A stretch of DNA of 52,400 nucleotides from a virus, in IMG/VR virus record IMGVR_UViG_3300019360_000102, positions 1 through 52,400 of that record; one strand, 5' to 3'. Position numbers and translations under genes: made by a program. Numbering within the stretch: position 1 is the first letter of the stretch; each line of letters begins with the position of its first letter. This document shows, piece after piece, positions 267 to 49,013 of this stretch. Under the pieces are notes generated by a model, which saw only the letters and a program-made list of their open reading frames with translations, did no database searches and had not been told where the DNA came from.

Positions 267-864
267 AATTACCACCCGTGATGTCGACGTGCTCCTTGTA
301 CGTCGCATGCACTATCCCGCCAAGACTTGTGAAAACAAGTAGTGCATTCTTGAACGCCGTTATAGACGCCGGTATGGCGTTGTAAAATATAACGCCGTCC
401 GGGAATGTCAGATTGTGAGGAGAGCCGTCGCTAAATAAATGCACAGTCATCAGCAAGACGCGGTCGCTGGGAACGAGATTTGAAAACGTAAACGTCAAAT
501 CGCCGATCACCGTGATGGTTCGATAACCTGGAACATCAAAGTCCAGGTCGACCGTGGCGGCGTAGGGGACTGTGATTAAGTCCTGCTGGGCCTCAAGCGC
601 GTCAACTCCGTCCTGGGCTGTATTCGCCGTAGATTGCGCGGCGATTGCGGTACTGTTCGCCGCAGCCGCATCCGTTAGTGCCTGGTCGGCGTCTGTCTGG
701 GCAGACGTGGCCGCCGAGATGGCAGCATTGGCAATAGTCTGGATTGAGTTCGTCAGGGCATAAAGCTCCGAGAAATTCATGTTCGACTTCTGACTGGCCG
801 CACGAAGATTATCGCCCGTCCCGTCATTGGCCGAATTACCAGTGTTGATCTGCTGCTGTGCCAT
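265..864 (-). CDS. Tail-fibre-like protein, DGTGD N-terminal module
   Basis: The 199-residue protein starts with the module MAQQQINTG..NDGTGD..RAA..K.N.NFSELY (residues 1-35), shared with five other proteins in this block. An alanine/threonine/glutamine-rich helical stretch (about 40-95) looks like a trimeric coiled-coil shaft, and a small beta-rich C-terminal domain follows. The domain order (adaptor, shaft, tip) is typical of phage tail appendages, so I infer a small fibre or fibre-attachment protein. It is the last gene of the operon and its start overlaps the stop of the gene upstream. The host receptor cannot be inferred. Confidence 0.65.
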   Translation of the reverse strand: MAQQQINTGNSANDGTGDNLRAASQKSNMNFSELYALTNSIQTIANAAISAATSAQTDADQALTDAAAANSTAIAAQSTANTAQDGVDALEAQQDLITVPYAATVDLDFDVPGYRTITVIGDLTFTFSNLVPSDRVLLMTVHLFSDGSPHNLTFPDGVIFYNAIPASITAFKNALLVFTSLGGIVHATYKEHVDITGGN

Positions 865-2165
865 TACGCCGGTAAAGTTCGACCCCAGGTGTATTTGAAC
901 GTGAGGTTGAGCGTGTGCGTCGAGAGCTTGGTTTGGAACTCATCGAACACAAACACGATGCCTGAGTACCGAGTGGTCTTATGATCCACGGTGGCGTCAC
1001 TGGCCGAGTCGTGGGCGCCGATGCCCATTGCTCGCCAATCGACACGATTTGCAACCGTAAGGCCATACGTGGCGCTCTTGTTGCGGGTGAACGAATCAGC
1101 GACGTAGCTGCTCAAGGTGACCGAGATGGTAGCACGATCGCCGTTGCGGTTAACCGAGCTTGCAAAAGCCGCCGGGGCGTTGGCACTGTTCGACAAGAAC
1201 AGCCGGGCTCCGTCGACCGAAAATGACTGAGTGAACGGTGGCGCGTCGTTGCCGGTCGGAGCCGAAATGCTCGTGAAAGTGTTGGCAAAAGGCTCGTTGC
1301 AATATCCCCCATTGTCGTAAGGTGTTGAAGGGCCGGACGTAGATACAGACGAGAGCCCGATCATTTGCCAGGCGAACACACCGCCATCGGTAACGGACGG
1401 GGCAATCGGCCAGCCGGATATATTGGGATCGGGAACCGTTACAGGGCTGAACGGGGTAATGGTCAAGACTAGCTCGTAGGACACCCGGAGTATTTGGCCG
1501 GCGATCAGGGATACGGGACTGGTAAGGACAACGCGGCTAAACAAATTGCCAATCCCTACTCCGTTGTAGCTGACACCCAGCTCGCGGTAGGTCACCGGGC
1601 CGGCTTCCGTCGGGAAGTCCCAGGTGCGACGATGCGTCAAGACGTTACTGACACGTGTGGTCTGACAGTTGCCGGCACCGGTGACGAAATTATTGGTACG
1701 CTGGATCTCGGTGTAGAGGGCGATCTGGTTGGCGCGATAGAGCTTAAACGTTGTGGACGCGACCGTTTGGCTGCGGTCTACGGTCACCTGAGTGGCACTG
1801 ATGTAGGCCGTAATCTTGGCTTCCTCCCCGGTGAAAAACTTGATCCATTTACCCTCGTCGCCAACGTCCAGGCCGCCTGCTGTGAAATTGAAAGAGCCGC
1901 TGGTGATGGTTACGGTAAAGCCAGATTGACTGGCCGTAGAGACCCCGCCATCATCGACAGTCGGCTCGTTGTTCGTGCCGACGCAGGCCACCAAGAAGTT
2001 GTCGCACCAAGCCCGAACGGCCACTTGGTTAAGTCCTTGATCCAGAATGAGATTGTTCTGCCAGCCATGATCGCGCACAATCTCACGGGTCGCGGCGTCG
2101 ATAATCATGCAGCGGAAACGACCCGTGGCCGATTGACTTTGTGCTGACGTCTTAACATGTCGCAT
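864..2165 (-). CDS. Putative tail appendage structural protein
   Basis: The 433-residue beta-rich protein lacks the DGTGD module. Its N-terminal part (FRCMIIDAATREIVRDHGW, LILDQGLNQV) and middle (TYRELGVSYNG, LFSRVVLTSP, LIAGQILRVSYEL) have the look of phage tail proteins that describe a ligand-free beta-sandwich. Its position inside a run of fibre genes supports a structural role. Enzyme motifs were not seen. The ATG is the first in-frame start and lies 39 bases after the upstream stop, with no obvious Shine-Dalgarno sequence. Confidence 0.55.
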   Translation of the reverse strand: MRHVKTSAQSQSATGRFRCMIIDAATREIVRDHGWQNNLILDQGLNQVAVRAWCDNFLVACVGTNNEPTVDDGGVSTASQSGFTVTITSGSFNFTAGGLDVGDEGKWIKFFTGEEAKITAYISATQVTVDRSQTVASTTFKLYRANQIALYTEIQRTNNFVTGAGNCQTTRVSNVLTHRRTWDFPTEAGPVTYRELGVSYNGVGIGNLFSRVVLTSPVSLIAGQILRVSYELVLTITPFSPVTVPDPNISGWPIAPSVTDGGVFAWQMIGLSSVSTSGPSTPYDNGGYCNEPFANTFTSISAPTGNDAPPFTQSFSVDGARLFLSNSANAPAAFASSVNRNGDRATISVTLSSYVADSFTRNKSATYGLTVANRVDWRAMGIGAHDSASDATVDHKTTRYSGIVFVFDEFQTKLSTHTLNLTFKYTWGRTLPA

Positions 2166-2204: not shown

Positions 2205-3572
2205 TCAACTGATTGGGGATACGGTGTCGGTACCGGCCGTGTCGTCCGAAGCCCAGACATTGTCGGTTGATGGAACGTAGCACAGCGCCTTTGGCGATGA
2301 GAATCCGGTCACATTAGCCACAATGCTGCCGGTCAGTGGATTTACCAGCTGAACTTGGGAGCCGTTCGACGGGCTGACGTAGATTCGATTCGTGGTCGGG
2401 CAATAGGCCGTGCCCTCTATGGCCGTAGAACCCATCGTGATCGTGGCAGCCAAAGCATGCGTCACTGGGTTATAGACTATCAAGCCAGTACCACCAGAAG
2501 GCCCTCCGCAATATAGGCGATTGTTGATCGGACAGTAAGTCATACGACCTTCCACGTTTGCCCCCAAGCCGCTAGAAGTCGTGACGACCGTATTGGTAGT
2601 CGGATCAATCTCCCTTAAGACCGATCCGCCACTAGCGTAAATGATCCGATCCGTAGTCGGGCAATAAATGATGTCATTAGAGACGGACGTGGCCGAAATG
2701 GTGGTCAAGACCGTATCGGTGGCCGGGTTAATGACTGAAACCGAGTTAGCGCCCTGATTGGCCACGTACAATCGGTCGTTGGACGGGCAGTAGCATATAC
2801 CACGAGGAGTGGAGCCAACCGTGATCGAACCCACCAAGGTGTTGGTATTGGGGTTAATGACGCGCACCACGGTGGCGCCCTCGGCGGTGTGGTAGATCCG
2901 GTCGTTGGACGGAGAGTAACAGATTGAGCGTGGATTGAGACTGGTGGCCAGAGTGGTCACAACCGCGCCCGTATCCGGCCGGACAACCGTGATGGAGTTT
3001 CCGGAGCGATTGGCGATGTAGATTCGATCCGAACTTGGTGCCCAGGCGATAGCGCGCGGGTCATTGCCAACGTTAGTGGTGGAACCCCGGACGGGCGTAC
3101 GGACCGTCAGGGGAAACGTGAAGGAACGGACCAGATTGGTATTGCCGAGAACCCGAAGGTAGTAGGTGGTACTGAACGCCAAGGTCAAGTTTGGCATCAT
3201 GGTCACGTCCCCAGAAACTAAGCGATCATCGTGAATGATTGTGTTGAACGCAGAATCAGTGGCGATCTGAAATCGGTAACGAAAAGAGCCATTGTCGCTA
3301 ACCCTGGCTGGCTGCCGTGGAGTCATCGGCGTGGGCTGCACGTTGTCGTCGAAGTAAATGTAATCACTGGCCACCGGGGTCCCGTTGGCCCGGTGGGTGG
3401 CCGTAAAAGGCGTCATCACGGTTGATGAGTAACCGTCGACGACGGAGAGTCCGTCCCCGCCGCCCGCATACAGCTCGATGAAGTTGTCATTCACTTTGTC
3501 GAACGCCGCCCGCATGGTGTCTCCAGTATTGTCATTAGTCCGGGCGCCCGTGTTGATGGTCTGCTGGCTCAT
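2205..3572 (-). CDS. Tail adhesin with seven-bladed YVTN beta-propeller (copy 1)
   Basis: 455 residues in three parts. The N-terminal module is MSQQTINTG..NDNTGD..RAAF.KVN.NFIELY (1-36). A beta-sandwich of fibronectin-like character follows (about 45-165, with the strand TTYYLRV). Then come seven repeats of about 42 residues of the form P..I.Y.PSNDRIYVAN....SV.VINP.TNTVV.TI.V, which is the YVTN-type beta-propeller pattern. Seven repeats imply a closed seven-bladed propeller. Such propellers bind ligands or proteins, so I infer a receptor-binding tip on a tail appendage. Its ATG overlaps the stop of the upstream paralogue (ATGA). Confidence 0.75.
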   Translation of the reverse strand: MSQQTINTGARTNDNTGDTMRAAFDKVNDNFIELYAGGGDGLSVVDGYSSTVMTPFTATHRANGTPVASDYIYFDDNVQPTPMTPRQPARVSDNGSFRYRFQIATDSAFNTIIHDDRLVSGDVTMMPNLTLAFSTTYYLRVLGNTNLVRSFTFPLTVRTPVRGSTTNVGNDPRAIAWAPSSDRIYIANRSGNSITVVRPDTGAVVTTLATSLNPRSICYSPSNDRIYHTAEGATVVRVINPNTNTLVGSITVGSTPRGICYCPSNDRLYVANQGANSVSVINPATDTVLTTISATSVSNDIIYCPTTDRIIYASGGSVLREIDPTTNTVVTTSSGLGANVEGRMTYCPINNRLYCGGPSGGTGLIVYNPVTHALAATITMGSTAIEGTAYCPTTNRIYVSPSNGSQVQLVNPLTGSIVANVTGFSSPKALCYVPSTDNVWASDDTAGTDTVSPIS

Positions 3573-4963
3573 TGGTACACCTGCATGGTATTGCTAGTAG
3601 CGCACGCCACCCACATGCGATCCACATTGGGCACATACGGGCTAACGCGAGGACCAGTAGCCGCGCCAGTCGATATAGTCGTAACGGTGGCAAGCGTAAC
3701 AGGATCAATCACCCGGACCTGATTATTTGTACCGTCCGACACCCATATCTGGTTCGTAGTGGGCATCCAGCAAATAAAATTGATGGCCGCCAGGGTTGTG
3801 AGCGTGTTGGTGACTACGTTGGTTGCGGGGTCGATGATGCTAATTGTGCCAGCAACGTTATTGGCCACCCATACACGATCCGTCGGCGGGTGATAGCAAC
3901 AGTAAACCGGTGTGTCGCCGACCGTGACGGTGGCGACGACCGTGTTGGTGTTAGGGTTGATCACCGAGACGTTGTCCGATGTCTGGTTGGTCACGAAAAG
4001 ACGATCACTCGTAGGGCAATAGGCCGATTGATTAAGTCGAGGTCCGGTGCCCACCGTGATGGTGGTGACTACGGATGCCGTGGCGGGATTGATCACCGAC
4101 ACGGTAGTTCCCGCTCCGGCGGCTCCGTTGTTGGCCACATAGACTCTATCCACGGACGGCACATAGCAACATCCCACCGGCGTGGAGCCTACCGTGATGT
4201 TGTCGACCAGGGTATTGGTCGATTGAGCAATGGTGCGAACGTTACTCGAACCTTGACAGGGGAAGAAGATCTTGTCGACCGTCGGGGCATAACAAGGGTC
4301 GTTGGGCGTAGTCGTTACACCTGTGACGGTAACGGCAATCGTGTTCGTGGCCGGGTTGACGATCTGTACCGTATTGGCGGTCTGATTGGCGCAGTAGACG
4401 TGTTGGTTTGTGGGGACATATACGCCTGGGCGAACACCAGAATTGAAGCCCGTGATGGTGGTCTGCAGAGCAGGTGTCCTGACCGTAAGGGGGAATCTGA
4501 ATTGCCGCATGTAAGATCCTCGCCCCACTATGCGCAAGTAGTACACGGTGTCATAATCAAATTTAGCTCTGGTGATCAAGCGTGCTGGCGTGCCGACTCG
4601 ATAATCCACCAATATCTTGGTGAAGCCAGAGTCTTCGGCTACCTGCAAGACTTGACCGTATGTATCGGTCACGTCCGTGAAGTGAAATCCACGCCGAAAG
4701 GTCTGGTTGGTTGGCTGGGTCACCGTGGCGTAAACAAAATCACTGTAGATCGGCGAGCCATCTAGGTAACCAACGGCAGTCGGGAACGTGCCGATGGATG
4801 CCGGGGTAATGGGCCAGCCAAATATAAGCGATGACGCCTGCCCGGTGCCTGTCTCCAGGTACAATTCCGAAAAGTTGGAGTTGACCTTAGTGAAGGCCGT
4901 GCGGACGGTGTCACCCGTACCGTCGTTGGCGACCGTGCCAATGTTGATGTGTTGACGGCTCAT
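3569..4963 (-). CDS. Tail adhesin with seven-bladed YVTN beta-propeller (copy 2)
   Basis: 464 residues, paralogous to both neighbours: the module MSRQHINIG..NDGTGD..RTAF.KVN.NFSELY, a beta-sandwich domain with the strand TVYYLRI, and seven propeller repeats (for example DRVYVANN, VSVINPNTNTVVATVTV). Cysteine pairs appear at several blade starts (CCY), which the other copies mostly lack. Start and stop overlap the neighbours by 4 bases (ATGA), so the three copies are probably translated in a coupled way. A receptor-binding or structural tip is inferred from the fold and the operon. Confidence 0.75.
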   Translation of the reverse strand: MSRQHINIGTVANDGTGDTVRTAFTKVNSNFSELYLETGTGQASSLIFGWPITPASIGTFPTAVGYLDGSPIYSDFVYATVTQPTNQTFRRGFHFTDVTDTYGQVLQVAEDSGFTKILVDYRVGTPARLITRAKFDYDTVYYLRIVGRGSYMRQFRFPLTVRTPALQTTITGFNSGVRPGVYVPTNQHVYCANQTANTVQIVNPATNTIAVTVTGVTTTPNDPCYAPTVDKIFFPCQGSSNVRTIAQSTNTLVDNITVGSTPVGCCYVPSVDRVYVANNGAAGAGTTVSVINPATASVVTTITVGTGPRLNQSAYCPTSDRLFVTNQTSDNVSVINPNTNTVVATVTVGDTPVYCCYHPPTDRVWVANNVAGTISIIDPATNVVTNTLTTLAAINFICWMPTTNQIWVSDGTNNQVRVIDPVTLATVTTISTGAATGPRVSPYVPNVDRMWVACATSNTMQVYQ

Positions 4964-6321
4964 TGCAATACACTGACCGCGTTACCTGAAGACTTCGAGA
5001 CATACATTCGGCCGTTCGTTGGAGAAAATATAGCATACGCCGGCCCAGATCCAATGGTGACGGTCGCGACGCTGGTGTCGGTGACAGGGTTAATGGAGGC
5101 CACCTGTCCGGACGTATTATTGCAAATGTAGACGCGATTAGTTGTTGGGAAGAACGCGCACGCGAAGGCGCCACTCATGCTGCCGATGGTTGTGCTTACC
5201 GTGTTGGTGGCCGAATCGATGACGGATACGTTACTGGTACCATTATTGGCTACGTAGAGCCTATTGTTTGTCGGGCAGAAGCAGATGCCAAACGGGGTGG
5301 TGCCCACCGTGATGGTGGTGACCACATAATCGCCCAAGGGGTCAATCGCCGAAACAGAGGCGCTGCCACTATTGGTGCAGTACAGCAGACCATTGGACTG
5401 GCAGAACCACATATCGCGAGGGCTGGAGCCGACCACGATTGACCGAAGCAAGGTGTTTGATGACGGGTCGATGACGGCGACGCGGCCGTTGGTGGTGGTC
5501 GAGACATAGATGCGATTATTCAGCGGGCTGAACACCGGCGAGATCGGCCCCGTACTGGCACCCGTGGAAATTGTCGTCGTAACCGCATTAGTCCCGGGGT
5601 TGATGACCGCTACATTGTTGGGTGTCGTCTGGGCGACATAGATCCTGTCATTGGACGGGCAGTAGACGGCACTGTTGGGGGCCGATATGCTGGTGGTGAT
5701 AGTTGCAACAACCGTATTGGTATTCGGGTTGATGACCGAGATCGAGTTGCCGCCAAAGTTACACTGGTAGATCCGGTCGTTGGACGGAGAGTAACAGCCG
5801 CCGCGAGGATTGGACCCAACCGCGATACTGGTATCCTCAACGGGACTGCGGGTGACCGTGTTGAACTGAAACTGTCTAATGTTCTGATTTGAGCCGTTGA
5901 TACGGGCATAATAGGGCGTGCCGGCCGCATGGTTCCAGGCGGCAAAGATGCGACTGTACGCGGCATTGCCATCGGCCGTCAGAGTGGTGAAAATTCCTGA
6001 AGTAGCGACCTGCACACGGTAACCCACCCGGACCACCACGGACTCATCGATACTGAAGATTTGCCGGGGTGTCTGGATGGTGGGGGTGGTTCCGTCAAAG
6101 TATACGAAATCGCTGGCCACCACGGTACCGTTCAGGTACGCCGCGGCAGGGAAGCCTGTCATGTAGGCCGCCGGGTAGTTGAACCCAAATTCCAGAGGGT
6201 TTGCGATTGTCGCGCTGTCGTACAGTTCGTCGAACATCAAGTTGGTAAACGTGAACGAATCACGGAAGGGATCTCCCGTGACGTCATTCAGCGCCGCCCC
6301 GACATATATGGTCCTTTGCAT
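4960..6321 (-). CDS. Tail adhesin with seven-bladed YVTN beta-propeller (copy 3)
   Basis: 453 residues. The N-terminal module is the most divergent of the set (MQRTIYVG..LNDVTGD..RDSF.F.NLMFDELY). A beta-sandwich (PYYARINGS) and seven propeller repeats follow (DRIYVAQ, VSVIDSATNTVSTTI). It is the first of three tandem propeller genes in the direction of transcription, and its ATG overlaps the stop of the beta-helix gene (TAATG). The divergence of the adaptor and blades suggests that the triplication is old or that the copies bind different partners. Confidence 0.75.
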   Translation of the reverse strand: MQRTIYVGAALNDVTGDPFRDSFTFTNLMFDELYDSATIANPLEFGFNYPAAYMTGFPAAAYLNGTVVASDFVYFDGTTPTIQTPRQIFSIDESVVVRVGYRVQVATSGIFTTLTADGNAAYSRIFAAWNHAAGTPYYARINGSNQNIRQFQFNTVTRSPVEDTSIAVGSNPRGGCYSPSNDRIYQCNFGGNSISVINPNTNTVVATITTSISAPNSAVYCPSNDRIYVAQTTPNNVAVINPGTNAVTTTISTGASTGPISPVFSPLNNRIYVSTTTNGRVAVIDPSSNTLLRSIVVGSSPRDMWFCQSNGLLYCTNSGSASVSAIDPLGDYVVTTITVGTTPFGICFCPTNNRLYVANNGTSNVSVIDSATNTVSTTIGSMSGAFACAFFPTTNRVYICNNTSGQVASINPVTDTSVATVTIGSGPAYAIFSPTNGRMYVSKSSGNAVSVLQ

Positions 6322-7214
6322 TACACGTACTGTCCGCCTGTGGCCGTAGTGCCGGCGGCATTTCCAGGAAAGAAGTTTGCTCCGCCACCGGCGGTCTGGA
6401 TCACGGAGTTCTCGCTGACAACATATCGAGTGCCGGTAGCCGCCCCGGAGAACGTCGATCCCGTGGCGTTTATGACACCCAAGTTGGTTGCACGAGCAAA
6501 GGCCGCCGAGAAGGCAGGAGTACCGGAGACCGTGACGGTGTGACTTATCCGCAGGGCCCCCGTGCTGGTGACATGGAAGTGTGTGGTAGCCCCGCCCGAA
6601 ACCGTGTAGTTCGATAGCGATACGGCGCTGCCCCCAAGATCTAGCTCGATCTGGTTAGTCAAGCCGCTCGCAAAAATCAGGTTACCATATTCCAGTCCGG
6701 CCTTATTCGACACCTGTATGCCCGGCTTAGCGTTAGCGGTCGATTGGATCTGCAGCGCAGTAAGCCGCCACCTGGCATGGCTGGGAGCCAGCTGTTGGAA
6801 CATGGCCGCGATGGCAGTAGAACTGGTAAAGATGACGCTGGCCGGCGTGCCAGTATTACCCTGGATCGAAACCGTCCCGCCGCCCACCACGGGGTACAAG
6901 ACAACCGGGGTGGTGAGCGTGTAGGTGCCGTTGGCGATCGAGATAGTGACCGTGACGCCCTCAGCGACCGTGAGCCCGCGACTGATGACGCTGACGGCTT
7001 TCTGGAGAGTCAAGAACGCGACCCCTGGACTAAGCCCGGTGTTGGAATCATTGCCGGCAGGGTCCACGTAGTAGGTACGATTGGTAGTTAGCAGCTCGCG
7101 GTAGCTGGCGTACAATTCGGTGAAATTAGCATTGATCTTGGTCGCAGCTGTACGGGGTGCGTCCCCCGTGCCGTCATTTGCGACTGTTCCTATGTTGATT
7201 GTCTGCTGGGCCAT
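6321..7214 (-). CDS. Tail-spike-like protein, beta-helix fold
   Basis: 297 residues. After the DGTGD module (1-36), the segment YYVDPAGNDSNTGLSPGVAF..LQKAV (about 47-75) matches the start of right-handed beta-helix (pectate-lyase-like) phage spikes. The rest is repetitive, rich in Ser, Thr, Gly and Val, and ends in FFPGNAAGTTATGGQYV, a C-terminal pattern familiar from prophage tail proteins. No catalytic acid pair can be assigned from reading alone, so a polysaccharide-cleaving activity is possible but not shown. Confidence 0.7.
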   Translation of the reverse strand: MAQQTINIGTVANDGTGDAPRTAATKINANFTELYASYRELLTTNRTYYVDPAGNDSNTGLSPGVAFLTLQKAVSVISRGLTVAEGVTVTISIANGTYTLTTPVVLYPVVGGGTVSIQGNTGTPASVIFTSSTAIAAMFQQLAPSHARWRLTALQIQSTANAKPGIQVSNKAGLEYGNLIFASGLTNQIELDLGGSAVSLSNYTVSGGATTHFHVTSTGALRISHTVTVSGTPAFSAAFARATNLGVINATGSTFSGAATGTRYVVSENSVIQTAGGGANFFPGNAAGTTATGGQYV

Positions 7215-7215
7215 A

Positions 7216-8463
7216 TCAGTATTCTTCGTCCATAGTGTACAACGTGTTATCCATTGAGGGCGAGGCCAAGTTGTCGTCGAAGGTCAGCTTGCCGTTGTCG
7301 GCTTGGAACGCCGTAGTATCCACCGTGGCGGCCGAATCCGCAAACGGATGTGCGCCGCCTGGGTATTCGTGGACGCCCGTCAAAAAAGTGGCCGTAATGG
7401 TGCTGTTCTCGGCGTCTTCGTCGACGATCAGGATAATCTCCTCATGGTCGCCAGACAAGAACTCCGCCGTGGCGGTACCGTTGTCGCTAACGCTAAACGT
7501 AACAAGGACTGCCAGATGCACGCCGTCCAAAAACTCCGCGGTGGCCGAACCGAAGTCCTCGTCTACGGTCGGAGCAATAATCAGCTTTTCAAAGTGTTCC
7601 CCGTCCAAAAACTCACAGGTGACGTTAGACCTATCGGCGTCAGACCCAGTGGCGCCGCCGCGATTGATGCCCCCGGGGATTCGGACGTTTTCAGGGAATG
7701 CCAGAGTGAAGATCAGGGCGTACAGCTGGTCTACGGCGCCGCCCAGGAATGGCTGATCGGTGGTCAGTGTCGAGCCAAGATCGGATGTAATTTGATAGTT
7801 GATCGACGGCTGATAGACAAACGGCTGGTCAAACGTGGCCTCGGAAACAAAGTCAATGGTTCCGTACGTTACGGTCAGTACGGACGAGTTGTTCGACGCA
7901 GTGAAGCGAATAATTGCCTCGTTGTCCTCCAGGCCCGTGCCGGGCAGTACCATGTCGTAAGAGCCGCTCAGGAACTCGGCCGCATGGGTAGCAAAGTCCT
8001 CATCCGCGTCATTAGCCAGCTGAATCTCGCGGTGCTCACCTTCCAGGAACTCCGCGGTACCGGTGACGTCGTCGCTGGGCGCACTACCGGGCTCGAACTG
8101 CGGGTCAATGATCAGCGTCAACAGATGATTGCCGGACAGGAACTCCGCGGTCTGGCCGGCGCCTTGATCCAGCAGGCTGGTCGTGGACGGCAAAGCTAGA
8201 AAGTGCCGGCCCGAAAGGAACGTGCAGTCGAGACTGCCGTCCAGCTGAACTTCGCGGGTTATGAGCGCATCGAAGTGGTTGCCGGTCAGAAACTCAGAAG
8301 TATGTGTGGCCTGATGCTCGTTCGGAGGGGGTTCGGCGAAAGGCTGAAAAGCATGATCGCCGGAAAGGAACGCGCAGAGAATATCGCCGGGTTCCGTGAA
8401 CCTCGGCGTGTCATCTTCCGTGAAGCCGTAAATCGTCGGGTCGCGAAGCGTGAGATTGTTCAT
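7216..8463 (-). CDS. Repeat protein with about ten EFLSGxH units
   Basis: The 415-residue acidic protein consists mostly of a repeat of about 30 residues with the core (A/C)EFL(S/D/E/T)G-x-H-x-x-x-L. I count ten clear copies (CAFLSGDH, SEFLTGNH, CTFLSGRH, AEFLSGNH, AEFLEGEH, AEFLSGSY, CEFLDGEH, AEFLDGVH, AEFLSGDH, ATFLTGVH) and one degenerate copy, with an insert of about 80 residues between units six and eight. I do not recognise the repeat. It lies in the fibre operon, one base from each neighbour, so a structural role is inferred. The regular aspartates could bind cations. Confidence 0.6.
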   Translation of the reverse strand: MNNLTLRDPTIYGFTEDDTPRFTEPGDILCAFLSGDHAFQPFAEPPPNEHQATHTSEFLTGNHFDALITREVQLDGSLDCTFLSGRHFLALPSTTSLLDQGAGQTAEFLSGNHLLTLIIDPQFEPGSAPSDDVTGTAEFLEGEHREIQLANDADEDFATHAAEFLSGSYDMVLPGTGLEDNEAIIRFTASNNSSVLTVTYGTIDFVSEATFDQPFVYQPSINYQITSDLGSTLTTDQPFLGGAVDQLYALIFTLAFPENVRIPGGINRGGATGSDADRSNVTCEFLDGEHFEKLIIAPTVDEDFGSATAEFLDGVHLAVLVTFSVSDNGTATAEFLSGDHEEIILIVDEDAENSTITATFLTGVHEYPGGAHPFADSAATVDTTAFQADNGKLTFDDNLASPSMDNTLYTMDEEY

Positions 8464-8466
8464 GCC

Positions 8467-8982
8467 TCATGACTGAAAGATGGCTATGGCTTTCACGTCT
8501 GACAGGCTTGGCCCGAACGCCGTGAAGCTGATCAAGATGGAGGAACTTTGCGGCAGAAGTGCCGGCGGTCCAAGTCCATACCACTTGATCAAGGGATCGA
8601 AAGTAAGGTTATGATCCGAGAGGCCATCACTCTCCAGCACCACCGTTATTCCCTTGGTGAACCCAGACTCAAACGGGATAGGCTCCAGAATCGAAATGTC
8701 AGTGGCCCCAATCACATCAGTCACTTGATAGCGAGCGCCGTCGAGATCGTAGTCGATACTGCTCGACCAGGGTATAGCGGCAAGCGTAGGAGTCAGGGTT
8801 TGTGCAAGTTCCAGCGCGGACGAGGCCACAATTTGAGCGGCATTGGCCGTAGCTTCCACGGCGGTAAGGTCTATGTCGGCCTTGCCGAAATTCTGGTTGA
8901 CCTTGCGCATGGCAGAGCGCAGCGGATCGCCCCCGCCGTCGTTTTCGACCTGACCGATACCTATTGACGTGAAACGGCTCAT
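8467..8982 (-). CDS. Small fibre-attachment-like protein, DGTGD module variant
   Basis: The 171-residue protein starts with a divergent adaptor module (MSRFTSIGIG..ENDGGGD..RSAMRKVNQNFG). A predicted helical shaft (VEATANAAQIVASSAL, about 42-60) and a beta-rich end follow. The end resembles the C terminus of the 199-residue protein at 265-864 (both contain DYDLDG/DLDFD and SDHNLTFD/SPHNLTFP). These two proteins are therefore paralogues at opposite ends of the block. Role inferred: small tail fibre or cap. Confidence 0.6.
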   Translation of the reverse strand: MSRFTSIGIGQVENDGGGDPLRSAMRKVNQNFGKADIDLTAVEATANAAQIVASSALELAQTLTPTLAAIPWSSSIDYDLDGARYQVTDVIGATDISILEPIPFESGFTKGITVVLESDGLSDHNLTFDPLIKWYGLGPPALLPQSSSILISFTAFGPSLSDVKAIAIFQS

Positions 8983-23499: not shown

Positions 23500-23715
23500 T
23501 CATTCAGACTTGTGATCAAGGTCATTTGGAGAAGGCGCAGTGCCCTTAGAGACGAATACAAGTGCCGCGTTGTCCTCGGAAAGTTCAATGAAGCACGCGA
23601 CAACACCGTCATGCATGCCGAATTTGATGTGCTCGCGTTCAACGTTACCATTCAACCAGTCCACTAGCGCAATGGTCGCGACGGCCTCTATCTGCTCGAA
23701 GTTCGGCTCACTCAT
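23500..23715 (-). CDS. Small acidic protein, 71 aa
   Basis: The ATG overlaps the stop of the RNA polymerase beta' gene (ATGA), so it is probably translated by coupling to it. The protein has a helical N terminus (FEQIEAVATIALVDWLNGN) and a beta hairpin (GVVACFIELSEDNAALVFVS). Function unknown. Its position makes it a candidate partner or regulator of the polymerase fragment, but that is inference only. Confidence 0.5.
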   Translation of the reverse strand: MSEPNFEQIEAVATIALVDWLNGNVEREHIKFGMHDGVVACFIELSEDNAALVFVSKGTAPSPNDLDHKSE

Positions 23716-26700
23716 CCAATTTTGACTTCGTCACTGAGGTTGACCTTGCCGGCATTGATGGCCGACAAGGCATGCTGCTCCGTCGGAAAGCTGTGGACCT
23801 GCTTGGGTGCGCGGTTCTTTGCCTGGTAGAGGCCGAGCACGAACTCATGCTTCGGCACCGGGACAACCTTCTCATGATCCTTGATGCTGAATAGCATGCG
23901 ACTAGGCATGAGGCGCTCTCGGACATCTTTGACGGCATCCGGCAGGGCGGGAACATGGACGTTCATTGTGTCCTGAACCACAATACCTTCTGAAGTGGCG
24001 AAGGTGAACGGGCCCGGGATGGTGACATCGTAAGCTTCCATTCTGCCCGGCAATTTTCTTGCACTGACCACGGGCAGCCAATCAACCGTGGTGTCCTCGA
24101 CGAGCTCGCAATATTCTCGGCAATCCGCACGATCTATGGCGGATTTACGCCACTCATCCGTGTATTGCCGGGCAAGTGTGCGTGTCCAGTAACCTCGGGT
24201 CTTGGAGGTCGAAAGCTCGCCGGCCTGAAACTTGTTAGTACCCCGCTGTTTCGCATCAGGCCAGAGTGACTTGAAAGTCTCGATCAATACCTTGTGCAGA
24301 TGCCAGGGATATGGAACTAGGTCGCTGGCCTGGTACTTGGATTCAAGATCCACGTGCAGCAATCCTTCCGCCAGGGTAGCTTGCTTCCGCGCTAGGCTTA
24401 CACGGAATCCAGTCCTGGCTACCATGCGGGCGAAATCCGGCGTGCTAAAGTGACATAACCAGGCGGCCTTGTGGCTGGACGAACTTCGATAGTGTGTCAC
24501 GCCGACACGAATCCCGAGCCGCCGACCGAGTAGCCGGACGTTATCCACCAAGTCCGGGCTAGAGGTCGCGTAGTTGATCTGCAATTGAGGCTTCTTCTTT
24601 CCGCGGGTGATCGCGACGGTCCCGTCGGTGGACAGGAGGCCGTCCAGGAGGCCAAGCAGATGCTCTTCCGGGGCGTTGAGGCTGAAGCTTGGAATACGCT
24701 TGCTCAGCGCGCCTTCGCCAATCTGCTGCTTGAGCCAGCGGCCAAACCATGCACAACTGACCCGCACCTTGGCCATTTTGTGTTCAGTGAACCCCTTGGC
24801 GACATGACGTATGAAATCTCCGTGGGTCAGAAAATTCAAATTGTCGGTCTTGGTCAGATCCATGAGGGTCTGCATATTGTCATCCTCGGCGCCGCACAGA
24901 TATATTCCGTCCTGATTGTCTACCCAGCCATCCCCGATTATCAGGCCAAGGAACTGGCCGAACTGCCGATCCAAAGCTACAGATCTTTCATGCGGCAGCT
25001 TGGCGCTACCCACGCCTTTCATGCCAGTTACCAAAATGTTTGAAACGACTCGATCTCCGGTATGAACCTTTCTAATCTTGGGTACGCACAGACGGTGAGC
25101 CGCCTCCGGGTTAACCGTGACGAGGGTACCCTCTCGGTACGCCACCAAGGAATGGTCTGACGAAACCACGAGGTTGGTCTTGTTGTATAACCCGATGTCC
25201 CACATCTCCAGGTCTCGGTGTACTGAAAATTTGGTGACCGGGAACCACCCGTGTTGGCCGGTCTGACGATCCAGACCGTACATCAGGACGCCCGCCGGAA
25301 CGTCCCATTCTGAGACCGTGGCGGACTTCTTGATCTCGGATCCCGGGACTATGGGCATGTCTTGGATATTGATGTTACCCTCGAACGTCATGATCTTTTG
25401 ATTTGTAATCATGGCACCACTGTAGGTGGTCACAGAAGACAAGTCAAGATTTGTTCGTATCAATGTCGAAGTCAGCAGCGAGTCTCCGTCGTGATCGGCC
25501 GCCAGACCTGTGCCTACCAACGGGTTAATAAGAATAGTCTTGCCAGAAATGATCTTGGCGGTGCCGCCGACCACGTTGAACTTGTGCCAGGCGGGCGCGC
25601 GGCTGTACATTGTGGGGCGATCCACTATCTCCATGTCAAGATACTTACGAGCCAAAGTGTTACGGTCATTGATCGCCTTGACGGCGTCGGCCGGCGAATG
25701 ACCAGCGCGAACCAAACGGCGCTGGACGTGCGGGGCGTAAAGCTTCCAAGCCATGTCCTCCGGTAGACCGATCTCGTCTAGCTGAAGTGAGGGGTCTAGT
25801 CCGATGACGCCACGGCCAACGTAATCAACCGGTTTCGATATGAGGGTACGGGTCAGCGCGGAAAATTTCGGGCTCGTGCCTGTAATTTTGCGAAGAAAGC
25901 CACTGACGCCGCGCTCCAGCGTCTTGGCCTTGACGGGGTCGCCGTAGCCGTAGACGGCCTTGATGGCATCATAGACGTTGATCCGGTTGTGCCCGGCGCC
26001 CTGGGAGCCCAGCTCGGCCTCCAGATGACCGTGGGCATCCCGGATGTCCACCAGGTCCCGGTACAGCTCATTGGCGTCGCCGGGAATGAAGGTGTCGCCA
26101 GCTACGTTGAATGGGCGGAACTTCGGTGGGATTACCGGTATCCTGGAAAGCATCAAGTCCTTGGGGTGTATGCCCGAACGGCGGAAACCCTCGACGAGTC
26201 CCAAGATCCTGATGGCGTCCGGCCGTCTGGTCTTCTTGCCGGAACGTACGACCGCCATATTGGTCTCATGAAGATGATCAAGATCGAGCATGTTGAGTGC
26301 GTGCTCGATAGCCTCCGGACCGGTCGCGGGCGGAAGGCCCACTGCGGCTTCGGGAAGCCGCGATGACTTCTTGACCGTGGGTAGCCGGTTGGTCAGGACG
26401 TTCATGACCGAGTTACTGAACCCGGCGTTCACCGGGCTGCTGATGACGCGCTGATACCATTTCTCGGCGGGACCCGATGGGTTCTTTAGCTGTTTGGCCA
26501 CGTCGCCGATAGCGGCCGCGTAGTTAGTGCCGGCGGACTGAAGGCCGGCCTTGAAGTCGGGAAGTGCGTTCCGGTTGGCCCAGTCCTGCGGACGGCCGGC
26601 CAGGGGCTTGGAAAAGGGGTTGATCTTGTCGCCGATCACCTGCGTCGTGGAAGGAGCCGTAAGCGGGGCGTCGATCTTCATGAGGTCGCCCACCACGCTG

Positions 26701-26816
26701 GACTGCGTAACAGGATCGGCTAAAGCTAGCTGCTGCAGCTTACCGACCAGATCGGGAGCCGCAGGCTGAGTAGCGGCCCATTTGACCAGGCCGTCAATGA
26801 TCTCAACATCGTTCAT
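23712..26816 (-). CDS. rpoC-like: RNA polymerase beta' middle part (catalytic), with intein
   Basis: 1034 residues. Residues 300-445 follow cellular beta': GFLRKITG..FSALTRTLISKPVDYVGRGVIG (cf. GKRVDYSGRSVI), IGLPEDMAWKLYAPHVQRRLV (cf. GLPK.MALELFKPFVM.RL), MYSRAPAWHK (cf. LLNRAPTLHR), then NPLVGTGLAADHDGD (cf. HPLVCTAFNADFDGD), which holds the three Mg-binding aspartates. After residue 949 the match resumes with TMNVHVPALPDAV (cf. QMAVHVPLS) and KHEFVLGLYQ (cf. QDMVLGLYY). Residues 446-949 are an intein. Once spliced, the protein would be about 530 residues. It stops well before the bridge helix and trigger loop, so another gene outside this window must supply the C-terminal half of beta'. 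Residues 1-300 are too diverged to place reliably. Confidence 0.9.
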   Translation of the reverse strand: MNDVEIIDGLVKWAATQPAAPDLVGKLQQLALADPVTQSSVVGDLMKIDAPLTAPSTTQVIGDKINPFSKPLAGRPQDWANRNALPDFKAGLQSAGTNYAAAIGDVAKQLKNPSGPAEKWYQRVISSPVNAGFSNSVMNVLTNRLPTVKKSSRLPEAAVGLPPATGPEAIEHALNMLDLDHLHETNMAVVRSGKKTRRPDAIRILGLVEGFRRSGIHPKDLMLSRIPVIPPKFRPFNVAGDTFIPGDANELYRDLVDIRDAHGHLEAELGSQGAGHNRINVYDAIKAVYGYGDPVKAKTLERGVSGFLRKITGTSPKFSALTRTLISKPVDYVGRGVIGLDPSLQLDEIGLPEDMAWKLYAPHVQRRLVRAGHSPADAVKAINDRNTLARKYLDMEIVDRPTMYSRAPAWHKFNVVGGTAKIISGKTILINPLVGTGLAADHDGDSLLTSTLIRTNLDLSSVTTYSGAMITNQKIMTFEGNINIQDMPIVPGSEIKKSATVSEWDVPAGVLMYGLDRQTGQHGWFPVTKFSVHRDLEMWDIGLYNKTNLVVSSDHSLVAYREGTLVTVNPEAAHRLCVPKIRKVHTGDRVVSNILVTGMKGVGSAKLPHERSVALDRQFGQFLGLIIGDGWVDNQDGIYLCGAEDDNMQTLMDLTKTDNLNFLTHGDFIRHVAKGFTEHKMAKVRVSCAWFGRWLKQQIGEGALSKRIPSFSLNAPEEHLLGLLDGLLSTDGTVAITRGKKKPQLQINYATSSPDLVDNVRLLGRRLGIRVGVTHYRSSSSHKAAWLCHFSTPDFARMVARTGFRVSLARKQATLAEGLLHVDLESKYQASDLVPYPWHLHKVLIETFKSLWPDAKQRGTNKFQAGELSTSKTRGYWTRTLARQYTDEWRKSAIDRADCREYCELVEDTTVDWLPVVSARKLPGRMEAYDVTIPGPFTFATSEGIVVQDTMNVHVPALPDAVKDVRERLMPSRMLFSIKDHEKVVPVPKHEFVLGLYQAKNRAPKQVHSFPTEQHALSAINAGKVNLSDEVKIG
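23970..25481 (-). mobile_element. Intein with LAGLIDADG homing endonuclease
   Basis: Residues 446-949 of the beta' protein (504 aa). The N-terminal splice block is SLLTSTLIRT (Ser nucleophile instead of Cys). A block-B-like segment is NLVVSSDHSLV with His 555. Two endonuclease motifs are visible, FLGLIIGDGW (622-631) and LLGLLDGLLSTDG (720-732), as in two-motif LAGLIDADG homing enzymes. The C-terminal blocks are MEAYDVTIPGPFTFA then GIVVQD, followed by Thr 950. The last residue is Asp and the one before it Gln, where His-Asn is usual. Asp-ended inteins are known but rare. The insertion is directly after the third catalytic Asp of the polymerase, so the unspliced enzyme should be inactive. Confidence 0.9.
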
Positions 26817-30534: not shown

Positions 30535-30858
30535 CTACACGATGCGACTTTTGGCCGTGAAGTGCTTGTCCTGGTATTCGACGGCCCCCGGCTCGTCGAC
30601 CCTGACCACAATACCCTTTCGGCGCGTTACGCCGTATCCATCGTCGTAAGACCATAGGGCCAGCCTAGTCTTGACGGGGCCGACATCCGTGAAGGCGGTG
30701 CATTCGTGCAAACCGTCTTCAACATCCGATAATTCCACTCCGGCACGAACCAGATTACAATCACCCATCTGCCGTTTGAGCAGGCCGTGGAAGTAGACGA
30801 AGGGCCATGAGAAGCCCTGCCCGGCTGACTCGGTGTAGAGTTTAATCAGTTTTGACAT
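30535..30858 (-). CDS. Hypothetical protein, 107 aa
   Basis: Its ATG lies inside the 3' end of the beta/beta' fusion gene (17-base overlap), so it is probably coupled to it. The protein is beta-rich (FVYFHGLLKRQMGDCNLVRAG, GVTRRKGIVVRVDEPGAV). No family is recognised. Its adjacency to an RNA polymerase gene is notable, as with the 71-residue protein after the beta' gene. Confidence 0.5.
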   Translation of the reverse strand: MSKLIKLYTESAGQGFSWPFVYFHGLLKRQMGDCNLVRAGVELSDVEDGLHECTAFTDVGPVKTRLALWSYDDGYGVTRRKGIVVRVDEPGAVEYQDKHFTAKSRIV

Positions 30859-32809
30859 TTTTCTTGGGTGGCGCCATCAGCAGATGTGGAGGCATTGCCT
30901 CCTGTCCGGCCAGGATCGCCCTGAACTGCTTTTCGGTAAGGCCCAGCAACTTCCGAATGGCCGTCTCGGCCGCGGGGTTGGGAACCTTGAACGGAAGATG
31001 AATGGCGCCCCACCGGTTATTACCGGTCATGGCGTCATCGAATAGACCACCCTTCACAGACTCGAGAGTCTCAGGATTAACCAATTCTCCGTTCTTCACT
31101 TCGATCGGGTCTACTGCATCCAGATCCTTATCGGTCCAGAATGATAAACGTTGCACCCCATCGGGAAGCTTGCGAGCATGGAATCCTGCCCCATTGAGCA
31201 AGGCTTGAAATTTATTGAAGGCGAACGGCACGCCGGGATTCTTGGGCTCGTGGCCGGAACGTAGAGCTCGCCAGTACTCGTCGTTACGCTGTCCACGAAG
31301 CGTGGCGGCATCGCGCAGCACCCCGTAGGCGCCGGCCGACAAGAGCGAATGACTTTCAAGTCCCGAGAGACGCTTGGACTGGGCCAGCTGGGAGCCGCCC
31401 TTGGTTGGTTGCTCGTTTGCATCGTAACTTCCTTGTCCCCTGATACTTATCTTTGAAGATGACGTGTGATGCAGCTTCAGGACATGACCGACGCCGACCG
31501 TGATCGGATTCTCTAACTTGCGGTTCTCCTGCGGGTCGAAGACTTCTTCGGTCTCGGACAGACCATGCTTGTCCAGCTCGCCTTTGACGAAGTCATGCCA
31601 TTTGTCCCCGTTCATGTTAAAACCTGGCAGCCTATAGGGGGCGCCGGCCTTGTGGGCCGCCTTGCCGAGCAGCAGCTCATACAAGAGCGAGTTGTTCACG
31701 CGACTGGGAAGGCCCAGCGGATTGAGCAGCATGTCAAGGGAGCCTCCGTCTGTGGTGCGGGGCATGTGGTCGTCCGGGATGATGAGGCTGACCACGCCCT
31801 TCGTTCCACTACGTAAGACGAGCTTGTCACCGACCTTGGTGGGCTGCTGAACTTTGACGTTAACCCTGACGCCCTTGGCGAGCTTCTTCACGTCCGTTAC
31901 GATCCCATCCTCTTCCTCGTCCCAAGTGGTCGAGGCGTCGGCGCGGGCGTTCTTCATGTGGCTAGATAGCTTACCCAGTTGAGCCTGCTGACTGGAGATG
32001 ATCTTCGGACGGGTGGCTAGTATGAGGGGGTGACCGTGCTTGACCGTTTGCCCAGCCTTTACGACGCCGTCATCGTCGAGGGTGTCGAGTTGCTCCTTCG
32101 TGAATTTGTTTGGGAAGACGCCGATGTGGTGACCCTTGCCACCCGTGACGCCCCGCTTGTATTCGGCGTCGAATCCGTACATGGCCTCCTGAGATAGTCG
32201 CTTAGCAAAAGCTTGGCTGATCACCACGGAGTCATCCATCGACCATCCTTTATAGGGGACCAAGCCAATACGGGCGTTAGCTCCCATCGCCAAAGTGCCC
32301 TTATCATCCGTGAAGTTGCTGACCGATATGGGCTGGTCTTTACGCACCATGTCGCCGGCCTTAACGATGGCACGACTGGTTAGACCAGTCTTCCGGTTCA
32401 TCGGGAAGTTGTCGTACAGGCCGACCCGGCGGCGCTTGCCATCCTGGTACTCCAGCTCAATATGCTTGTCAGTCACCCGGTGTACCCGGGCATCTTGATC
32501 GGCACGGAGGGCACCCATGTGCTGACCATAGTAATCGTCAAATGACCGCCCGTCTGGGTCCTGATCGATGGCGTTCTGGACCAGGGGTGCCTCGCGGTTC
32601 ACGATCGGCATAGCCTGGTTGATGAACCTGGCGCCGTAAAAGAGCCGCGGCCCGGCAACCGCGTTCTGTAGGGGGATCATGTTGACATGACTCCCAAAGA
32701 ACTTGGACGGGCTATCTAGCTCGTAGTCAATCTCGTGGGGGTCTTGTACCTCCTCGATCTTACTGTTGCGGATAACCGCGCGTTTAGGCACAGGGCTCTG
32801 CATCCCCAT
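30842..32809 (-). CDS. rpoBC-like: RNA polymerase beta C-terminal half fused to beta' N terminus
   Basis: 655 residues. Residues 25-80 match the beta fork region (EIDYELDSPSKFFGSHVNMI, FINQAMPIVNREAPLV; cf. VDYMDVSPKQIVS, MQRQAVPLLRPEAPLV). Residues 176-198 (GANARIGLVPYKGWSMDDSVV) match [20 protein letters not shown]. Residues 326-379 (VGDKLVLRSGTKGVVSLIIP, then MLLNPLGLPSRVN) match the GDK.A.RHGNKGV..KI and LNPLGVPSRMN segment. Residues 444-500 match the beta C-terminal clamp (KLHH..SKI..R..GSY, TKGGSQLAQSKRLSGLESHSL). Residues 563-632 (DPIEV, SVKGGLFDDAMTG, WGAIHLPFKVPNP, IRKLLGLT) match the start of beta' (KPERDGLFCARIFG, MGHIELASP). The beta' zinc-binding cysteines are absent. Either ATG at 32809 or 32803 is possible. 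Confidence 0.9.
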   Translation of the reverse strand: MGMQSPVPKRAVIRNSKIEEVQDPHEIDYELDSPSKFFGSHVNMIPLQNAVAGPRLFYGARFINQAMPIVNREAPLVQNAIDQDPDGRSFDDYYGQHMGALRADQDARVHRVTDKHIELEYQDGKRRRVGLYDNFPMNRKTGLTSRAIVKAGDMVRKDQPISVSNFTDDKGTLAMGANARIGLVPYKGWSMDDSVVISQAFAKRLSQEAMYGFDAEYKRGVTGGKGHHIGVFPNKFTKEQLDTLDDDGVVKAGQTVKHGHPLILATRPKIISSQQAQLGKLSSHMKNARADASTTWDEEEDGIVTDVKKLAKGVRVNVKVQQPTKVGDKLVLRSGTKGVVSLIIPDDHMPRTTDGGSLDMLLNPLGLPSRVNNSLLYELLLGKAAHKAGAPYRLPGFNMNGDKWHDFVKGELDKHGLSETEEVFDPQENRKLENPITVGVGHVLKLHHTSSSKISIRGQGSYDANEQPTKGGSQLAQSKRLSGLESHSLLSAGAYGVLRDAATLRGQRNDEYWRALRSGHEPKNPGVPFAFNKFQALLNGAGFHARKLPDGVQRLSFWTDKDLDAVDPIEVKNGELVNPETLESVKGGLFDDAMTGNNRWGAIHLPFKVPNPAAETAIRKLLGLTEKQFRAILAGQEAMPPHLLMAPPKKNVKTD

Positions 32810-47161: not shown

Positions 47162-47257
47162 AGCTTCCACAGTTTGACATCATGGTCCGGGTGAAGCCAG
47201 GAAAATTTGGGATAATCGGGCAGGATATGACGAAGGAGGATCCTTGGCTGACGCTCA
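47158..47257 (-). CDS. Possible small gene with unclear start
   Basis: A frame ends with TGA at 47158-47160, overlapping the YiiX-like ATG (ATGA), and its last residues (RILLRHILPDYPKFSW, LHPDHDVKLWKL) look like real protein. The only canonical-type start is a TTG at 47421 far inside the 3' end of the beta-N gene. The first convincing residues begin where the beta-N frame ends (47255). Initiation at a rare codon, or frameshifting from the beta-N gene, would explain it. Confidence 0.3.
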
Positions 47258-48910
47258 GCGAGAGCCAGGTTCAGGCTGGTAGGCTCGGGTGAGGTCCATG
47301 TCGGGGAGCCGCTTCCGGAAATCGTGAATGTCGATTCGGTATATTGACTGCAATCCTCGCCACCCTGGTTGGTAGTTGGATTCGTAGAGGTCACGGGCGC
47401 ATTCCTTTGTTGGGCAGCCAAGGATGATCTTGTGCTCGTCGAAACGGCCGGTCGTAGGGTCGACCTGGTTTACGATCCAGACATTGTCCGTATGAAGATC
47501 AGGTCCGATGAACACGTCCAGGTGATCCCCGTCGGCGCCTTCGGTCTTTTTCAAATAGCCGTAATGGGCCTTCATCTTGATCGCCCACTTGACGCCTTGG
47601 CGGTCCACGCCTCGGCGCCATGATCCCTTGGGGTTCTCGATGGCGATGTCCAGGCCGTGTAGACGTACATGCCCCTTCCGATAATTTCCAGAATGCTGCT
47701 GCGGCTTGGTCGGTAGCTTCTGACGGTTTTTCTCAGAAGTGGCTGCGCGATGGGCAGCTAGGTCGAGTTCCTTCTTGGTCCGTACGGCCGCGGCCATCTT
47801 GCCGAAGCTGCCCGATAACGCGGTCGATACCCCGGGGTTGATGCCGGGCATCTCGCTATGGATGACCGCACGAATGTCGTCGGCCAGCTGCTCCAAGGAT
47901 TCGTTGATGTCGATGCCGGCGTCGAACTGCTGGTTGAGGAACAGCGCGATAGCGATCAGGTCCTCTTTGGAGAGATCCTGGCCAGCCTGGTCGGCCGCGC
48001 TGCCCGGCGGGGGTCCCAGGTCGGGCGTGTCTTGGAAGGCGGTGTCAGGGGCAGGTCCTTGGGCGGTACCACCGAACTGTTCGCTGGCGCCCGCTAGGCT
48101 GCCGGCCTGAAACGCGCTGGCCATCTTCCTGTGGGACAATAGATCCGGCATGGTCTTCTGGACCGTACTCAGATGCAGGTATGTATCCTTCAGGGCAGTC
48201 CTGATGGATTCCTGTTTCTGAGTGTGTGAGGCACCGGGATCAGGCTTGCGTACGAGACGTTGATATGCCTTGTCGAACACGCGGCGGTCGTAGCCATCCT
48301 GGTTGGCCTTCAGGATCTCGGACCCCCAGAGTTGCTCCAGCTCCTTCTCGTCGACGCCCAGGTCCTTCATGAGGCTATGCAGTCGCAAGCTGGCCTGTCC
48401 GATGTCCATCTTGAACAACCCGGTCTCCGGCTCCAAGCGAATCCGAAAGCTGTGGCCAGCACCTCGCTTGGTATTAAAATGAGTCTCCAGTTCGCCAGAG
48501 TCTTTCCGGCGCGTGTAGGCGCCGGGCAGTAGGCGGGCCTGGTGGATGGTAGCGTATTCATTTCCGCCGTGAATGAATGTTCCGCGGTTGGTCAGATATG
48601 GAACTTTGGCGACTGTTTGATGTTGTTCATCCAGAAGATTTCCTGTCTTATCATCAAACAGGCGAAAAGTCCCACGGAGCTTGCGATGCAAATAGTCTCC
48701 CTTTAGGAGCGCCTCTTTCTGCTCGTCGATGGTGAACGGCTCTTCGCTATCATATTTAAGATCATGCAGTTCGAGACGAACTCCACCATAGGATTGGGGG
48801 AACTGCCGCAATACGGCTTCATGCATCCCTTTGAAGATGTTGCCGCGAAGCGTGTCATGATCCTCCCAGTCACGCAGCTCGGCCCCATGTGGGTAGATGT
48901 CATCAGCCAT
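47255..48910 (-). CDS. rpoB-like: RNA polymerase beta N-terminal part fused to an InPase domain
   Basis: 551 residues from the ATG at 48908-48910 (a start at 48961 is possible). Residues 104-132 (KVPYLTNRGTFIHGGNEYAT, LLPGAY) match beta [20 protein letters not shown] and RSPGVYF. Residues 150-205 (HSFRIRLEPETGLFKMDIGQ, LHSLMKDLGV) match [20 protein letters not shown] and ILRALGY. A linker (about 258-395) contains a Pro/Gly tract and helices. Residues about 413-533 form an inorganic-pyrophosphatase-like (InPase) domain of polyvalent-protein type: GHVRLHGLDIAIENPKGSW, AHYGYL, GADGDHLDVFIGP (458-470), NQVDPTTGRFDEHKIILG (481-498), YESNYQPGW. The acidic residues suit metal and pyrophosphate binding. 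It is the first polymerase gene in the direction of transcription. Confidence 0.8.
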   Translation of the reverse strand: MADDIYPHGAELRDWEDHDTLRGNIFKGMHEAVLRQFPQSYGGVRLELHDLKYDSEEPFTIDEQKEALLKGDYLHRKLRGTFRLFDDKTGNLLDEQHQTVAKVPYLTNRGTFIHGGNEYATIHQARLLPGAYTRRKDSGELETHFNTKRGAGHSFRIRLEPETGLFKMDIGQASLRLHSLMKDLGVDEKELEQLWGSEILKANQDGYDRRVFDKAYQRLVRKPDPGASHTQKQESIRTALKDTYLHLSTVQKTMPDLLSHRKMASAFQAGSLAGASEQFGGTAQGPAPDTAFQDTPDLGPPPGSAADQAGQDLSKEDLIAIALFLNQQFDAGIDINESLEQLADDIRAVIHSEMPGINPGVSTALSGSFGKMAAAVRTKKELDLAAHRAATSEKNRQKLPTKPQQHSGNYRKGHVRLHGLDIAIENPKGSWRRGVDRQGVKWAIKMKAHYGYLKKTEGADGDHLDVFIGPDLHTDNVWIVNQVDPTTGRFDEHKIILGCPTKECARDLYESNYQPGWRGLQSIYRIDIHDFRKRLPDMDLTRAYQPEPGSR

Positions 48911-49013
48911 GCCGTAAGGGTAGCACCTACTTGGTTTGCAGGTCAATATGCAGTCGCTCATCAGACACGGCCAGATGGGCGACCAACACGGCGAGTTTCT
49001 CGTCAGGGCGGGG

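Follow-up and report, generated by a model that had tools for sequence, protein, structure and literature searches.

Three tandem phage genes joining a gp10-type anchor to a seven-bladed YVTN propeller, likely baseplate-attached adhesins

The three genes and their propellers

The IMG/VR virus contig IMGVR_UViG_3300019360_000102, whose positions 1-52,400 (52.4 kb) make up the window analysed here, carries at 2205-6321 three complete open reading frames (ORFs) on the minus strand, of which consecutive ones overlap by 4 bases: gene A (4960-6321, 453 amino acids (aa)), gene B (3569-4963, 464 aa) and gene C (2205-3572, 455 aa). The encoded proteins are paralogues of about 35% identity to one another and share a common layout, in which an anchor of about 45 residues (residues 1-45) is followed by a middle domain of about 115 residues and a C-terminal seven-bladed YVTN propeller; B aligns with its paralogues over its full length, blade for blade. 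Antisense to B, a 397-aa frame is open on the plus strand (3572-4765), most likely as a by-product of base composition.

The propellers occupy residues 161-453 of A (4963-5841), 166-464 of B (3572-4468) and 161-455 of C (2208-3092), all on the minus strand, as are the other features of the three genes described below. They are recognised by the NCBIfam YVTN repeat model TIGR02276 with 153.8, 111.2 and 72.0 bits for A, B and C (E 7.8e-46, 1.6e-32 and 2.7e-20), all above its curated cut-off of 27.85 bits and far beyond chance. A motif scan found the P[ST].[ND]RIY-like blade anchor exactly seven times in each protein, at residues 179, 222, 266, 308, 350, 392 and 434 of A, 184, 227, 269, 317, 359, 401 and 445 of B, and 179, 221, 263, 305, 348, 392 and 434 of C, with a spacing of 42-48 residues that is mostly 42-44 and reaches 48 in a single step, in B. 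Modelled with AlphaFold2 from three aligned rows, A forms 28 strands, four in each of seven blades, with a predicted local distance difference test (pLDDT) score mostly around 90 in the propeller. The last blade has no outer strand of its own; residues 162-167, which precede blade 1, provide it, so that the ring of A is, in the model, shut by a Velcro closure. The model of C, built from six rows, has the same fold. In VIA-align, A superimposes on Escherichia coli YncE (7seu_D) with Z 37.7 and a root-mean-square deviation (rmsd) of 2.0 over 290 residues, and C with Z 36.2 and an rmsd of 2.2 over 291 residues. The archaeal S-layer YVTN protein 1l0q, the top Foldseek match of A (VIA-align Z 36.1), is also the best match in the PDB by sequence, with E 5.7e-35 for A; B matches it at 2.9e-26. 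While 1l0q shares the seven-bladed YVTN fold and the 42-residue repeat, it is a cellular surface protein in which the propeller is paired with PKD domains; A, B and C have no PKD match in Pfam, and carry a phage anchor of the gp10 type and the middle domain in front of the propeller.

A and C are thus modelled as closed seven-bladed propellers, and B is recognisable as a seven-bladed YVTN propeller from its sequence. The original prediction, made from the DNA letters alone, had read three tandem genes of exactly seven YVTN repeats each, an account that the ORFs, the TIGR02276 scores and the blade anchors bear out. It had also named structure prediction as a check, in which a lack of propellers would speak against it, and it survives this for A and C, since both models form propellers.

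A gp10-type anchor and the surrounding fibre cluster

The N-terminal anchors are of the T4 gp10/gp9 type, a homology that the original prediction did not contain. That of B (4829-4963) scores 30.8 bits with PF07880, above the cut-off of 25, and residues 3-58 match T4 gp10 (5hx2) with E 1e-9, with a further gp10 match at 1.5e-7. The anchor of C (3438-3572) stays slightly below the cut-off with 22.0 bits; both proteins match phrog_677, the baseplate wedge tail fiber protein connector, at 1.9e-12 (B) and 1.5e-9 (C). The anchor of A (6187-6321), the most diverged of the three, has no PF07880 or PHROG match of its own and is assigned via the alignment with B and C; protein A has no PHROG match at all. 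The likeness to T4 gp10/gp9 covers the N-terminal 55 or so residues and does not extend over the whole protein, the matches ending by residue 63; in place of the C-terminal part of gp10/gp9, the window proteins have the middle domain and the propeller. By these N-termini and the tail PHROGs, A, B and C very probably attach to the baseplate as fibres tipped by propellers, in agreement with the tail setting that had been proposed for them.

The middle domain of A (residues 46-160, 5842-6186) is modelled as a small beta fold with strands within residues 102-152 (pLDDT 40-64), and that of C (residues 46-160, 3093-3437) with four strands within residues 99-152 (pLDDT 44-78); in B (residues 46-165, 4469-4828) it was placed by alignment. 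A likeness to FN3 or Ig-like domains was seen by eye and set aside, as neither a Pfam nor a PDB sequence match backs it. The domain is therefore given no name here.

Six genes in the window bear the anchor, A, B and C together with three minus-strand neighbours: 265-864 (199 aa, PF07880 27.2 bits), whose C-terminus differs in a sister phage; 6321-7214 (297 aa, PF07880 26.4 bits), with a beta-helix-like C-terminus (weak match to a Pel9A-like beta-helix, 1.6e-4); and 8467-8982 (171 aa), found by phrog_677 (4.7e-4) and by the window's N-terminal profile (4.2e-6). The 433-aa product of 864-2165 (minus strand) is a tail fibre protein without the anchor (phrog_4176, tail fiber, 4.1e-13), while the 415-aa product of 7216-8463 (minus strand) shows repeated EFLSG(N/D)H motifs and no family match. 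Two or more anchor genes are present in 27 of 58 anchor-bearing loci, the window included, a count to be taken as a description and not as a rate, since the loci were retrieved mostly via this anchor and some overlap. Multi-gene anchor arrays are common in viral contigs.

Conservation and proposed function

What would three such fibres do for the phage? We consider it likely that A, B and C are three different baseplate-attached adhesins whose propeller tips bind the host surface, where the binding, the trimer, the tip position and the joint presence of the fibres are what we infer. The short gp10/gp9-type N-terminal segment would plug each protein into the baseplate, and the fibre would probably form a trimer, as do T4 gp10 and gp9. 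The small middle beta domain would serve as a stand-off, and the seven-bladed propeller would be displayed at the fibre tip, where it would most likely bind a host surface component. With all three fibres on one virion, as we suppose, the phage would hold several distinct contacts side by side, joined by the fibres of the remaining anchor genes in the cluster. Clusters of fibres that share an anchor and differ at their tips are typical host-contact equipment, and the propeller is probably one more host-binding tip.

Phage host-contact propellers are known from few structures (phi11, PRD1, phiKZ), with ligands that are mostly unproven. The phi11 receptor-binding protein Gp45 is trimeric and has a five-bladed propeller as a putative ligand-binding platform, with a cavity the size of N-acetylglucosamine (PMC4901313); it resembles A, B and C as a phage tail protein carrying a propeller, and differs from them in its five blades, its stem and a C-terminal tower past the propeller. 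In phiKZ, gp131C forms a propeller of seven blades on the periphery of the baseplate (PMC4901313), and gp131 and its paralogues gp133-135 are, like the proteins of the window, a tandem set of tail proteins with a common N-terminal region (gp131 vs gp133, 27%). As gp131 and its paralogues reach only E 0.1 or worse in hidden Markov model comparisons with our propeller and N-terminal profiles, and gp131 and gp133-135 have no YVTN match, the likeness is one of design and not of membership.

The same cluster is carried by three sister phage contigs (L002, L056 and L057), which are mutually identical over B and C; scans for close relatives returned none when A or B was the sole query, and a profile scan found them. 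In L002, the three propellers are all present and their order is unchanged. Between window and sister, the propellers of A, B and C are each 73% identical, the middle domains 62, 70 and 56%, and the anchors 73-78%. Among the neighbours, 864-2165 is the most conserved of the cluster at 85%, followed by 6321-7214 at 78%, while 7216-8463, at 63%, is the fastest changing of those that are intact. In the propellers, the proportion of synonymous differences (pS) is 0.72-0.79, with synonymous sites near saturation, and that of nonsynonymous differences (pN) about 0.18, which places them on average under purifying selection as estimated from one sister phage; at a few sites, selection may have been episodic.

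Several of these observations weigh against propellers as host-binding tips. The propellers change no more than the middle domains, those of A and C being clearly the steadier part, and such steadiness departs from what is usually expected of a receptor-binding tip under contest. The record is a fragment of a phage genome, and model confidence is low for the anchor and the greater part of the middle domain (pLDDT 25-65). Nor did a face test, in which loops were assigned from the strands of the A model and orthologue substitutions counted, find a face-specific excess in the propellers over cellular YVTN pairs. Substituted positions do make up 67/185 (36%) of the bc and da loops and 33/156 (21%) of the ab and cd loops (p=0.003), yet cellular YVTN pairs are biased likewise, with 58% vs 29% in a pair from Thaumarchaeota and 64% vs 39% in a second pair. 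Face-specific diversification was therefore rejected: the bias is real, and because cellular pairs share it, it reflects a constraint of the fold, with its conserved turns, and not a receptor signature. The original prediction had proposed mapping variable residues to one propeller face; one loop face indeed varies more, without exceeding what cellular propellers show. No reverse transcriptase, as part of a diversity-generating retroelement, was found in the record, fragment that it is. The diversification for receptor range that had been ascribed to the three genes is not supported, given the even 73% identity, the preserved order, the excess of pS over pN and a face bias that is not specific.

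Exchange of tips is nevertheless seen in the cluster, though not at the propellers. The anchor gene 265-864 and its sister counterpart L057:4384-5604 are 67% identical in residues 1-70 and 25% beyond, where the sister protein has collagen repeats and another C-terminus; the C-terminus has thus been swapped between the two phages.

These data could also suit a structural role, in which the propellers, like the seven-bladed domain of the SU10/T7 nozzle, would be packed onto one another or onto the baseplate, would not bind the host and would leave host choice to other fibres, for example 265-864 or 864-2165. The SU10 nozzle propeller, with its structural role (PMC9509320), provides a precedent, and the conservation of our propellers, their strong purifying selection and the exchanged C-terminus in 265-864 in their stead point the same way. 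We nevertheless hold a structural role, the main rival to the adhesin reading, to be unlikely, as each propeller forms the C-terminal end of a protein with a gp10-type anchor, in three copies that have diverged to about 35% identity, and as related propellers in other phages end collagen or coiled-coil fibres, which is a tip position. Quite improbable are lactonase- or lyase-like enzymes cutting a host surface polymer: although PF10282 (lactonase) matches A, B and C with 25.8, 25.2 and 27.1 bits, above its cut-off of 21.7, and B has a weak virginiamycin B lyase match, the YVTN repeat model fits far better, the 6-phosphogluconolactonase model PRK11028 reaches 22.6 bits for A and 12.8 for B against a cut-off of 370, with C unlisted, and no catalytic residues were identified.

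Kinship of the propellers

Where did the propellers of these putative adhesins come from? Among 84,980 species genomes scanned, the closest matches were in Magnetococcales (37-45% identity), in propellers that sit in phage tail modules with a collagen fibre, a major tail protein (2.6e-49) and a tape measure protein (2.4e-44). The viral contig L063 has the same kind of propeller within a T4-like baseplate gene cluster, and L125 and L127 carry further ones on different stems. The Magnetococcales prophage fibres and L063 share the propeller branch and the phage tail context with the window, and differ in having collagen or other stems, one copy each, a GYFGLLDW-type linker ahead of the propeller and no gp10-type anchor. 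In L063:5554-6882, the blades are nearly identical, with CPTNDRIYV in each, which suggests a recent amplification. On L066 (2080-2874), YVTN blades end a 264-aa protein that has no PHROG match and looks tail-tube-like by position and sequence. The only record labelled as phage that was matched by A, MT836048.1 ('Bacteriophage sp.'), was discarded; its genes look bacterial-chromosomal, being by eye thymidine phosphorylase-, phosphoketolase- and multicopper-oxidase-like.

An unrooted maximum-likelihood tree, with cellular sequences picked by query-derived patterns and without 1l0q and YncE, puts 13 propellers of phages and prophages on one branch (98/98; 99/98 with a first set) apart from 16 cellular YVTN propellers. 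The phylogeny against cellular YVTN proteins proposed earlier was meant for the blades; run with propellers, it groups those of the window with phage fibres. As the nearest relatives are tail-fibre propellers of phages and prophages, the data do not point to a recent acquisition from a cellular surface protein; a capture, if there was any, would be old and not the work of the present phage. Each of A, B and C is joined to its orthologue in the sister phage (100/100), so that the paralogues are older than the divergence of the two sister phages, while their mutual order is not resolved in the tree, where a single clade of all six was neither found nor rejected (approximately unbiased test, p 0.41). 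The original account, in which the phage captured a propeller from a cellular surface protein, triplicated it and diversified it for receptor range, is the least probable of all: although the best match of the propellers among solved structures by sequence is the archaeal S-layer protein 1l0q, it is at odds with a phage branch that excludes the cellular propellers, with paralogues older than the sister split and with the missing diversifying signal.

The triplication itself stands in part. There are three paralogues, and anchor and middle domain are homologous in all of them and hence duplicated. A simple in-register triplication of the propeller, however, gave no visible signal: the paralogues do not keep a common order of blades, same-position blades being not significantly closer between them than those in different positions (permutation p 0.39, 0.59 and 0.11). 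With anchor and middle domain duplicated and no blade register, the propellers have either diverged beyond register or been amplified or exchanged separately.

Phage database entries labelled as YVTN or lactonase-type propellers already exist, and the literature searched, which leaves many subscription papers outside, yielded no relevant paper on YVTN propellers and phage tails. New here is the joining of a gp10-type anchor to a middle domain and a YVTN propeller, three times in tandem. It makes a class of propeller recognisable from sequence alone via the YVTN model, links it with tandem arrays of T4-type baseplate anchors and with relatives on several further kinds of fibre, and provides a searchable signature for fibre tips left unnamed by current phage libraries. 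It also corrects a tempting story, the relatives being phages and not a recently robbed cell. Tentatively, phage-borne YVTN propellers might be a standing, undescribed class of interchangeable tail-tip domain that passes between unrelated gp10-type, collagen and coiled-coil stems, and the three described here would be shown on a single baseplate as a multi-receptor set.

Elsewhere in the window, two minus-strand genes resemble RNA polymerase subunits, a beta'-like one at 23712-26816 and a beta-like one at 30842-32809. The beta' ORF has a partial match to Rpb1 domain 2. A LAGLIDADG domain lies within it, at residues 720-778, and suggests an intein or homing endonuclease. A few genes past the fibre cluster of the sister phage, a 613-aa ORF (L057:9075-10916) resembles, by eye, the C-terminal portion of an RNA polymerase beta' subunit. 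Finally, the 568-aa product of 47255-48961 (minus strand) ends in an inorganic pyrophosphatase-type domain (PF18823).

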